The notes beneath the pieces were generated by a model. It worked only from the letters and a program-made list of their open reading frames with translations, did no database searches and had not been told where the DNA came from. DNA of 36,745 nt, taken from NCBI GenBank assembly GCA_017420185.1, contig JAFOJM010000029.1:1-36745 (forward strand), in the 5' to 3' direction. Position numbers and translations under genes: made by a program. Below are positions 6,582-10,994 of this stretch, in pieces. Positions within the stretch are counted from its first letter, which is position 1; every line of letters begins with the position of its first letter. This stretch comes from Candidatus Saccharimonadota bacterium. GTDB lineage: Bacteria; Patescibacteriota; Saccharimonadia; Saccharimonadales; Saccharimonadaceae.

Positions 6582-7109
6582 CTAAAAACCGCGGGCGACT
6601 AGACGGACCGAGCCGATAGCAGTGTCTTTGCATCTGGCAACATACAGCCCCTCTTCGTAGTCGTTGAGAAAAATCATATATGCATCGGTGCTGTCGACGC
6701 TGATGCCAAGATAGTACCCAACATTATTGCTCCCTATTATGCAGTGGCAGCTGTTCGCGGGATCCGAATTGTACATGTCGTAATTATCGCCATTCGCGGG
6801 AGTCCCTTTAAGCTCAAGGCCAAGCGAGGCTATGAGATAGTGCGGATGACGGGCGCCGTCTTTTTCGCCAAACTCCCTTACTATGTCGATAAGTTCACAA
6901 CCGTTTGGGATGTCCCAGCCTTTCGGGAATTCGCCGGCCTCCCTCAAGAGAAGCAGCTCGCGCAGTGTAAAAAATTTTTTGCCTTTCTTGAAGGTGGTGC
7001 CGTCTGCGAGCGTGATGTCCTTGGCGATACAATAGTCTTCGCGGGCTATATAGAGACCACTACTGGTGGCGATAGCCTCGCTTAGTGAGTATGCGAATGA
7101 GTTTTTCAT
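6582..7109 (-). CDS. Small cytosolic protein with a divergent FISUMP-like domain
   Basis: The 175-residue product has no signal peptide or membrane segment. The second half follows the pattern of the Fibrobacter succinogenes major paralogous (FISUMP) domain: FPKGWDIPNGCELIDIV stands where PAGWRLPT... is usual, then NNVGYYLG and a C-terminal SVRLVARGF matching the usual GYSxRCV end. It resembles the product at 14908-15411 (shared xGWxxPxxxE, NVGYYxx and a similar N-terminal layout), so the two are probably paralogues. A GGAGG ribosome site lies 8 nt before the ATG. It has its own minus-strand promoter (7168-7195) and a perfect-palindrome terminator. The fold is likely C-type-lectin-like; ligand and role unknown. 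Confidence 0.7.
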   Translation of the reverse strand: MKNSFAYSLSEAIATSSGLYIAREDYCIAKDITLADGTTFKKGKKFFTLRELLLLREAGEFPKGWDIPNGCELIDIVREFGEKDGARHPHYLIASLGLELKGTPANGDNYDMYNSDPANSCHCIIGSNNVGYYLGISVDSTDAYMIFLNDYEEGLYVARCKDTAIGSVRLVARGF

Positions 7110-8221: not shown

Positions 8222-8542
8222 ATGATTCTTGAAGAGTATACTGTTGACCAATGTACGGAGTCGGAGCGTATCAATGATTACGTGCGCGTGGATGAGCATG
8301 AAGGCGAAATTATTTATTACTTTCATCCGAAGCGCTATCAGGTGGATGATGCCGAGATGCGCGAGGTTATCAATGGTCTCATTTTCAATAATGAGTGCTC
8401 TGGTGCTGATTTGGCACGATTGGCGAGTGGTGAAATTCGAGTGTACTTTAATCCGATGATGCACTGCTGGCTGAGCCGTAAAACAGTTACTAAGAGAATT
8501 ATTTCGGCTATTAAACAGCCAAATCCGAACACAACTATCTAA
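8222..8542 (+). CDS. Hypothetical small acidic protein
   Basis: 106 residues with no signal peptide or membrane segment and no motif I recognise. It has an acidic N-terminal half (ILEEYTVDQCTESER...), a predicted beta-rich centre (EGEIIYYFHPKRYQ; EIRVYFNP) and a basic C-terminus (RKTVTKRIISAIK). An AGGAGGTGAT ribosome site 4 nt before the ATG and a good promoter/terminator pair make expression likely. Its position among single-gene units with the same promoter design suggests it belongs to the accessory island. Confidence 0.65.
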   Translation: MILEEYTVDQCTESERINDYVRVDEHEGEIIYYFHPKRYQVDDAEMREVINGLIFNNECSGADLARLASGEIRVYFNPMMHCWLSRKTVTKRIISAIKQPNPNTTI

Positions 8543-8616: not shown

Positions 8617-9624
8617 ATGAACAATTTCAATAAACTTGGAGTGACAAGTGGAAATTCATGGAGTAGGGAAATTACACATAGGGCTAAAGAGTATTCTACG
8701 GAGGAGAAAGCTGAAATATTGTATAAAGCGATGTATAGAAATCAACCTTCTTTTGATGATTTTCGTGGACGGGATGGATATTCGGACAAAATGTTAAGGG
8801 CTGACGCAGGATACGTGAGAAAAAGAAAAGAAGAAATTGCAAAGAAAGATCAACAGACTAAAACTGAGTATGCAAGAAATGATCGGTGGTCTGCACAGGC
8901 TGAGCCGATACTGACATACATCATGAATACTGATCAATTTTTGCCTACACGTGAGTCTTTTGCGCATCTGGCACATGAATATGATGACTTGAGTAATGGT
9001 ACTGATATTGTTTTTTGCGTATCGAGTAAGAATGGAGGAAATATTACTTGTTCGGTGGATGTGGCTACCGATACTGATCAAAGGCGTATTATGGGAAAAT
9101 TTAGAGAGAGTGGAAGAATGCACAAGACTACTCCTCCTTGGGCGGCGAACGTGAGATATTGCTATCATGGTGATGAGCGTTGGGAAGAGTTAGAGGCACC
9201 GCACTTTATTTTGGGGTTGATGCCGTCGAGAATTGATGACGCGACTGATGCAGTGAATATAAAGGATGGTTTGATATCTGGGCGAGAGTCAGATTTGAAG
9301 ACTGATTTTAAACTTGCCTCTGAGATGCGTGAACAAATACTAATGCAATTGGCATTTCTTAGAGCAGAAGTAGGCGTAGACAATAAAAGTAGGATGGCTA
9401 AGTTGTCAGATTTGTTGAATGCTATCAATACTAAGTTAGGTAGAGTTTGTGGAGTGGAGGGAGAGACAAAAGAAGAATGGGCGAACGATTTTGAGAAAAA
9501 GTATAAAAAAACAAAAGAACAAATGAGGGAAGATCTAGTATATAGACATATAATAGATGAAGCAAAGAATCGGACTAATTTTGTGAGGGGTAAGAGAATC
9601 CGAAGAATAGACAATGCTGCGTAG
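8617..9624 (+). CDS. Hypothetical protein, 335 residues
   Basis: No signal or membrane segment. Visible layout: a charged N-terminal helical part (about 20-95, EEKAEILYKAMYRNQPSFDDF and KRKEEIAKKDQQTK), a central alpha/beta part (about 110-205, with TDIVFCVSSKNGGNITCSVDV and APHFILGLMP), and a C-terminal helical, basic region (about 225-335). I do not recognise the family. The TDIVF...SVDVATD stretch loosely recalls nuclease-fold strands, but I see no complete PD-(D/E)xK signature. An AAAGGAG ribosome site lies 5 nt before the ATG. The codons are unusually A/G-rich and the gene stands alone inside the accessory island. Confidence 0.6.
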   Translation: MNNFNKLGVTSGNSWSREITHRAKEYSTEEKAEILYKAMYRNQPSFDDFRGRDGYSDKMLRADAGYVRKRKEEIAKKDQQTKTEYARNDRWSAQAEPILTYIMNTDQFLPTRESFAHLAHEYDDLSNGTDIVFCVSSKNGGNITCSVDVATDTDQRRIMGKFRESGRMHKTTPPWAANVRYCYHGDERWEELEAPHFILGLMPSRIDDATDAVNIKDGLISGRESDLKTDFKLASEMREQILMQLAFLRAEVGVDNKSRMAKLSDLLNAINTKLGRVCGVEGETKEEWANDFEKKYKKTKEQMREDLVYRHIIDEAKNRTNFVRGKRIRRIDNAA

Positions 9625-9729: not shown

Positions 9730-9758
9730 TTGACTTTTTGTCGTGTATATGCTATAAT
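9730..9758 (+). promoter_or_regulatory. Promoter of the alphaCTD-sigma4 fusion gene
   Basis: TTGACT (9730-9735), 17-nt spacer ending TATGC, TATAAT (9753-9758). It carries both a -35 and an extended -10. Confidence 0.75.
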
Positions 9759-9764
9759 TGTAAT

Positions 9765-9918
9765 ATGTAGATGTAAGTCTGCTGGCGCCCTTGTGGTGAG
9801 AATATTAAAAATTAAGGAAGGAAGGAAGAGTCTTGCTTTTGTTTCTCCTCAGAATGTCTGAGGTTTACATAGATTAGAATTATCAAAATTTTCGTGAATA
9901 TTATGGAGGATTTAAACT
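9765..9918 (+). promoter_or_regulatory. Long structured 5' leader of the alphaCTD-sigma4 fusion gene
   Basis: About 154 nt from the predicted +1 to the ATG. It contains a perfect hairpin CCTCAGA-ATG-TCTGAGG (9848-9864), a possible outer pairing ATGTAA (9770-9775) with TTACAT (9866-9871), and a purine-rich GGAAGGAAGGAAG stretch (about 9817-9829) well upstream of the true ribosome site (TGGAGG, 9905-9910). Most core genes here have little or no leader, so this one stands out as a candidate regulatory region. Confidence 0.45.
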
Positions 9919-10935
9919 ATGGCTAATAATTTTGAGAATATGGAGCATATTGCTGAGGAGGTAAATAATATGGTTAACGTAAGAAAAGCAAGCGAGCTTA
10001 AATCTTTGGATGAGCTGAATCTTTCTAAGAGAACATATAACAGCGTGAAAGACATCCAGCCGGAAAGATTAATATACTTAGTAAGACGCGGGAAGTGTGA
10101 GTATCATATCGATAGAATGTGGAGGGCTTCTTATGAAGAACTCGACAGAATTATTGAAGAGGCCGGATTCATCCGTCACGATTTCGATGCTAGAAGCTTT
10201 GGCCTCGGCGCTCTCTATCGAACCATTATTGAAGATCGTGATAACGGCCAAACATTGTGGCCATACGTTCGCATTTCGGACTTCGAATCCAATGAAGCAT
10301 ACGAAAGCTACAAAAACTTTTCCGAAGCCCAACTTAAAGCAGTGGATCAGCTGCTCGATGAGGTGCTTAATGAAAAAGAAAAGGATATTCTTCGGCTTCG
10401 TTTTGGCCTCGCTGATGGGAAGAGATGGAGCTTGACAGAAGTAGGAGCAAAGTATACTTGCATCCGTGAAAAAGTTATGGCTGTCGAAGCGAGAGCGATG
10501 TTTAAACTCAGATCCAGATCTAGGCTCAACAGGTTGAAGGCCATTGTGTTGTTTTCGTCCGAAGAGCAATGTCGTGACCAAATAACCTCTATGTGCCAGG
10601 AACTTACGAAGCTATATAAAGAGAGCCGTGAACTCAAAGAAAAAATCTTTGCTGTAAAAAAATATTCGCCGTTTTTTCCAGATGAGGAAAGGCCTGGTTT
10701 GACCGAACTGGATCAATCTCGACAGATTGAGGTCTTGAACCTTAGTGCGAGAACCTACAAAATTTTGAGATGTACTGGTATTGCGACCATTGATGATCTT
10801 AAAAGACTTCGTTCCGCCGACCCAGAGAATTGGCATTCGAAGATCCGAAGTATTGACCGCAGCGCCATTCGAGAATTAGCCGAAAAGACTAATAAATTTC
10901 TCGGGTGGGAGGAACCTCTTATTGATAAGTTTTGA
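9919..10935 (+). CDS. AlphaCTD - sigma region 4 - alphaCTD fusion regulator
   Basis: 338 residues built from RNA polymerase-like modules. Residues 29-84 resemble the alpha C-terminal domain (LDELNLSKRTYNSVKD...). Residues 143-200 resemble sigma70 region 4 (LNEKEKDILRLRFGL, then SLTEVGAKYTCIREKVMAVEARAMFKLR, the helix-turn-helix). Residues 218-247 are a predicted coiled coil. Residues 268-328 are a second alphaCTD-like domain (IEVLNLSARTYKILRCTGIATIDDL...). Sigma regions 2 and 3 are absent, so it cannot open promoters by itself; an anti-sigma-like, co-activator or UP-element-binding role is possible (inference). A TGGAGG ribosome site precedes the ATG. It has its own strong promoter, a long leader and a terminator. 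Confidence 0.75.
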   Translation: MANNFENMEHIAEEVNNMVNVRKASELKSLDELNLSKRTYNSVKDIQPERLIYLVRRGKCEYHIDRMWRASYEELDRIIEEAGFIRHDFDARSFGLGALYRTIIEDRDNGQTLWPYVRISDFESNEAYESYKNFSEAQLKAVDQLLDEVLNEKEKDILRLRFGLADGKRWSLTEVGAKYTCIREKVMAVEARAMFKLRSRSRLNRLKAIVLFSSEEQCRDQITSMCQELTKLYKESRELKEKIFAVKKYSPFFPDEERPGLTELDQSRQIEVLNLSARTYKILRCTGIATIDDLKRLRSADPENWHSKIRSIDRSAIRELAEKTNKFLGWEEPLIDKF

Positions 10936-10965: not shown

Positions 10966-10994
10966 TGTCCCCGGCAGCCAGTCGGGGCTTTTTG
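10966..10994 (+). terminator. Terminator of the alphaCTD-sigma4 gene
   Basis: GTCCCCG / CGGGGCT stem followed by TTTTTG. Confidence 0.8.

Follow-up and report, generated by a model that had tools for sequence, protein, structure and literature searches.

A free-standing alphaCTD-sigma4-alphaCTD fusion protein of Saccharimonadota as a candidate accessory transcription regulator

RNA polymerase reads the upstream half of a promoter through two modules, region 4 of the sigma factor (sigma4) and the C-terminal domain of the alpha subunit (alphaCTD). In the alphaCTD, residues R265, N268, C269, G296 and K298 have contact roles in DNA binding. In sigma70, bases of the -35 element are contacted by R584, E585 and R588, and promoters carrying a TGn extension can function without sigma region 4.2 (PMC2613000). 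Region 4 can also reside on a separate protein, as in the SigO/RsoA system of Bacillus subtilis, where SigO has region 4 without region 2 (PMC8103513). Appropriation of sigma by phage factors has been described (PMC6755090), and T4 AsiA binds sigma region 4 (PMC2613000).

Here we describe a protein that unites both promoter-reading modules of RNA polymerase in a free-standing form, in a host with a single sigma factor. Its gene lies in a stretch of 36,745 nucleotides (the window) from a Candidatus Saccharimonadota genome (assembly GCA_017420185.1, contig JAFOJM010000029.1, positions 1 to 36,745 of the forward strand). The protein is an alphaCTD-sigma4-helix-alphaCTD fusion without sigma regions 2 and 3, preceded by a strong promoter and a long leader (Table 1).

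Table 1. Coordinates of the fusion gene, its upstream region and a recurring orphan gene pair (window numbering except for L124)
Feature	Position	Strand	Basis
Promoter TTGACT-17-TATAAT with TG (extended -10)	9730..9758	+	11/12 matches
Conserved 5' leader, 160 nt	9759..9918	+	similarity to G157, G175 and G078 leaders
Leader core motif GGTGAGAATATTAAAAATTAAGGAAGGA, consensus GGTGAGNACATTRAAAATTTAAGAAAGGA	9795..9822	+	alignments A4/A5; model R1
Leader hairpin CCTCAG-loop-CTGAGG	9847..9863	+	kept with paired changes in five leaders
Shine-Dalgarno GGAGG	9905..9909	+	sequence
Protein gene, 338 aa, alphaCTD-sigma4-helix-alphaCTD	9919..10935	+	ORF call, Pfam, AlphaFold model
N-terminal alphaCTD-like domain, aa 24-85	9988..10173	+	hhalign, separate model, structure comparison
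Family-specific NxxYE motif	10291..10308	+	Tyr128 36/36, Glu129 33/36 members
Sigma region 4, aa 136-211	10324..10551	+	Pfam, PDB, structure comparison
Long helix, aa 215-249	10561..10665	+	AlphaFold model
C-terminal alphaCTD, aa 266-328	10714..10902	+	Pfam above cut-off; hhalign 98.8% (family domain)
Terminator-like hairpin, then T-rich tail	10969..10987	+	
Orphan gene pair in L124	10699-11010 and 11065-12078		

Pfam places RNA_pol_A_CTD (34.6 bits, cut-off 23.8, best stretch 266-300) and Sigma70_r4 (32.2 bits, cut-off 24.1, residues 149-198) in the protein, and gives no match to sigma region 2 or 3 or to the alpha N-terminal dimerisation domain. In a PDB sequence search, residues 143-208 matched sigmaA region 4 structures with a best E of 2e-11. 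An AlphaFold2 model based on an alignment of 45 family members has a mean pLDDT of 87.4; in this model sigma4 fits 7kuf_B over 71 residues (Z 10.2, 1.2 A) and is followed by a single helix of 35 residues. The N-terminal domain was modelled separately because its sequence is too diverged for a strong match. The resulting model (pLDDT 76.7) retrieved RNA polymerase alpha CTDs as all of its top 31 chains, the best being 1z3e_B (Z 8.0, 2.4 A, 62 residues, 31% identity). By hhalign the host RpoA CTD matches the C-terminal alphaCTD of the family at 98.8%, and the N-terminal domain matches that same family domain at 93.8% and the RpoA CTD at 78%. A Z of about 8 would not suffice by itself; what convinces us that the N-terminal domain is alphaCTD-like is that fold, profile and family agree. 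The original prediction of a protein with two alphaCTD-like domains around a sigma4 and no sigma regions 2 and 3 is thus upheld by Pfam, hhalign, the AlphaFold model and structure comparison, with both folds recovered by profile and structure. The coiled coil that it placed in the protein is consistent with the long helix after sigma4.

Several known systems share some of these features. The protein shares the region 4 fold with primary sigma factors, and several family members share the -35 recognition helix, but regions 1.2, 2 and 3 are missing. With RNA polymerase alpha it has two alphaCTD folds in common, and in several members the canonical DNA-contact residues, but the alpha N-terminal domain is not attached; the window genome has its own complete rpoA elsewhere. 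The N-terminal copy differs from the RpoA CTD in a nearly invariant Arg56 and in the loss of most of the second helix-hairpin. We know of no alphaCTDs in SigO, which resembles the family protein in carrying region 4 on a separate protein. T4 AsiA and MotA are likewise small and exert their effect at sigma4 and the -35 region; AsiA, however, binds sigma4 whereas the family protein contains it, and no sequence relation between the two is apparent. The match to MzaA, the sigma of the MZA anti-phage system, scores 50.5 bits (curated cut-off 800) and covers the sigma4 part only, short of the full length. In the literature searched, whose coverage is incomplete, we found no described protein family with this fusion architecture.

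About 65 related genes were collected. Of 174 genomes from the window's own genus, about 32 contain a clear match (E below about 1e-16). In wider samples the N-terminal domain turned up in 2 of 61 genera for the taxonomic family and 1 of 143 for the order. In the other lineages of the phylum that were sampled we saw only sigma4-alphaCTD proteins (L066, L067), which share the joining of these two domains but lack the N-terminal alphaCTD and the NxxYE segment. One of them (L067:1123-3387, minus strand), from another lineage of the phylum, is a complete sigma-70 factor with regions 1.2-4 plus C-terminal alphaCTD-like domains. A Peregrinibacteria protein (L001:5935-7029) carries a sigma region 4 at its N-terminal end, ahead of about 250 residues without assignment. 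Among 62 family members, 24 are alphaCTD-sigma4, 20 alphaCTD-sigma4-alphaCTD and 9 sigma4-alphaCTD, with other arrangements making up the remainder. The residues that mark the family lie outside known contacts: Tyr128 (36/36), Arg56 (35/36) and Glu129 (33/36). Divergence is fast, with a median end branch of 0.95 changes per column in the family tree, and genome G064 carries four divergent paralogues within one 8.9-kb contig (L121 298-7827). Close pairs give dN/dS values of 0.12-0.49, indicating purifying selection and thus a protein that is maintained.

DNA-contact residues vary among members. Numbered against E. coli reference fragments, the sigma4 of the window protein keeps the equivalents of R584 and E585 but has Met and Ala at R588 and Q589. 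Its second alphaCTD keeps R265, but N268, G296 and K298 are replaced by Lys, Asp and Ser. Several other members, L031 among them (VTRERIRQIE), retain canonical -35 contacts, and L031-type members have all five alphaCTD contact residues R265, N268, C269, G296 and K298. Because these members keep contacts that the window protein has partly lost, the family ancestor was probably a canonical reader of -35 and UP DNA. Within the recognition helix, few positions now vary as much as those of the sigma4 contacts (3.7 bits of entropy at R584), a pattern equally compatible with lost binding and with re-targeting. Individual copies would since have been re-targeted or have lost canonical reading.

We propose, with a probability of roughly 0.5, that the window gene product is an accessory, probably self-regulating, promoter-binding transcription regulator. 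In effect it would be the front end of RNA polymerase, the part that reads promoters, made into a separate protein. The sigma4 helix-turn-helix and the alphaCTDs would sit next to each other on promoter-like DNA, in the arrangement known from -35/UP DNA, and might also touch the beta-flap or the host alphaCTD. Access of polymerase would thereby change at the gene's own promoter-leader and at a few accessory genes with the same leader. Because members have drifted in their DNA-contact residues, and the window protein far, copies probably differ in target or in strength. In support we count the domain evidence, the canonical contacts of L031, the dN/dS values and the bias of the leader to family genes. 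The promoter and leader are also 80% identical to those of a sister gene in genome G157 while the two proteins are 43% identical, with synonymous sites saturated. Finally, a single region-2 protein, a full sigma, was present in each of the eight genus genomes checked, which leaves room for another kind of regulator. Against the regulator count the variability of the sigma4 contact positions, the occurrence of the leader before unrelated genes, the absence of the second alphaCTD from 24 of 62 members and the lack of a conserved neighbourhood.

The strong -35 and long leader of the gene were noted in the original prediction as unlike the core genes, and the contrast holds across the family: near-consensus TTGACW-17-TGnTATAAT precedes 61% of family genes but only 5% of core-like genes that recur and 12.5% of orphans. 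The pattern TTGACW-N12-TRTGN-TATAAT occurs in all 170 genus genomes examined, at about 20 per genome (range 1-57), and its reversed control not once. Counts are alike whether the family is present or absent (means of 22.9 and 21.3, respectively; p=0.21, 170 genomes), so this appears to be a generic strong sigmaA promoter. It looks like the strongest promoter class of the genus, not a signal of the family protein, and a regulon defined by it was rejected for the same reason. The suggestion that the fusion could redirect polymerase at -35 promoters gains no support from these data, the promoter type being as common without the family and most canonical contacts being lost from the window protein; such redirection is possible for canonical members and weakest for the protein studied here. 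Some role as a regulator is still likely.

A different use of the same parts would be competition for polymerase, in which the sigma4 takes over the beta-flap from region 4 of sigmaA, or the alphaCTDs displace those of the host, so that -35-dependent promoters weaken and TGn promoters still fire. The sigma4 fold is intact, the strong promoters would yield enough protein, and most family promoters, that of the window gene included, contain TGnTATAAT. However, they also have a near-perfect -35, needless for a -35-independent promoter, and we consider competition unlikely.

The leader came as a surprise. Model R1 matches the window at 9775-9834 (E 5e-7). The common layout is a 5' hairpin and the motif, to which long forms add small hairpins. 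A few pairs change on both sides, which lends modest support to an RNA structure. The single window leader folds no more stably than its shuffles (z -0.45), and RNAalifold gave no pairs for core-motif alignment A5. No known RNA family in Rfam matches. A leader peptide was rejected, as neither start codon nor frame is conserved; so was an rrn-type boxA, most genomes having no match, hence the leader is not a general rRNA-leader element.

A sequence-only model, trained mostly on family leaders, was used to scan 170 genomes at E up to 1e-4. It returned 22 strong matches, 17 upstream of family genes and five upstream of unrelated accessory genes. Training bias touches the matches other than the six outside the training set, and three of these six precede previously unrecognised family members. 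The leader occurs twice in G130:C5, before a family gene and again before the 137-aa gene that comes next. Genes outside the family in G175 and G078 have leaders to which the window promoter and leader are 70-72% identical. Loci with the shared leader, before members of the family or before small accessory genes unrelated to it, comprise window 9759-9918 and L185, L186, L187, L204, L205 and L236-L240. The leader also precedes unrelated genes in some genomes without a detected family member, therefore it is not strictly dependent on the family protein.

Sharing of this kind could mean that the gene is cargo of a mobile promoter-leader cassette, partly decaying and without a dedicated role in gene regulation. 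The same leader indeed stands before unrelated genes even at one site: upstream of a secE-like gene, G157 has the leader and a family gene, and G078 the leader and a 145-aa gene. The contact residues lost from the window protein would suit such decay, but dN/dS below 0.5 and the strong bias of the leader to family genes do not, which makes mere cargo quite unlikely.

The genomic setting of the putative regulator is variable. Family members are single genes in variable gaps between core genes, for example obgE|trmD (the window and L030) and a ribosomal-protein cluster|prfB, the names outside the window coming from sequence reading. In the relative G007 obgE adjoins trmD with no gene between. 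The closest relative of the window protein, in L106, occupies a different site, before a secE-like gene. The window and L030 proteins share the obgE|trmD gap but are not sisters in the tree. No neighbour genes are conserved around family members. The upstream 335-aa gene (8617-9624) was considered as a fixed partner and rejected, being present in 10 of 170 genomes and not consistently with the family. Together with 8222-8542 (106 aa) it forms an orphan pair that recurs in G157 (L124, Table 1) at a different site, about 61% identical. Beside the island, 6582-7109 (minus strand) has a weak FISUMP-type domain match (E 0.0036), and similar-looking proteins recur nearby. An origin from phages or plasmids was rejected, as the collections give only sigma4 matches to sigma factors; two family proteins searched against viral contigs found no match.

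The protein might instead be a decoy, absorbing proteins, for example from phages, that attack sigma region 4 or the alphaCTD. It resembles the polymerase parts targeted by phage factors such as T4 AsiA, and rapid change, a patchy distribution, multiple copies in certain genomes and strong promoters would all suit this role. Yet no defence-gene neighbourhood was seen, and the sole notable PADLOC match is MzaA, via sigma4 alone; a decoy thus appears distinctly improbable. A split sigma half like SigO/RsoA, requiring a separate region-2 protein, is highly improbable despite the shared absence of region 2, as there is no conserved neighbour and the window genome (78% complete) yielded no SigO/RsoA-type partner, its one Sigma70_r2 protein being the full housekeeping sigma.

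The ways in which single-sigma bacteria alter gene expression are largely unknown. If the family protein does bind promoters or polymerase, it would alter transcription by a route other than those taken by alternative sigma factors, by anti-sigma factors or by ordinary repressors. Because the shared promoter-leader names concrete candidate targets, this idea is directly testable. A broader and tentative reading, to which we give much less weight, is that single-sigma bacteria possess free-standing alphaCTD-sigma4-alphaCTD front ends, diversified at the DNA-contact residues, that control a narrow group of accessory genes marked by one promoter-leader, their own included. If this is true, such a set of front ends would amount to reprogramming of RNA polymerase without alternative sigma factors.
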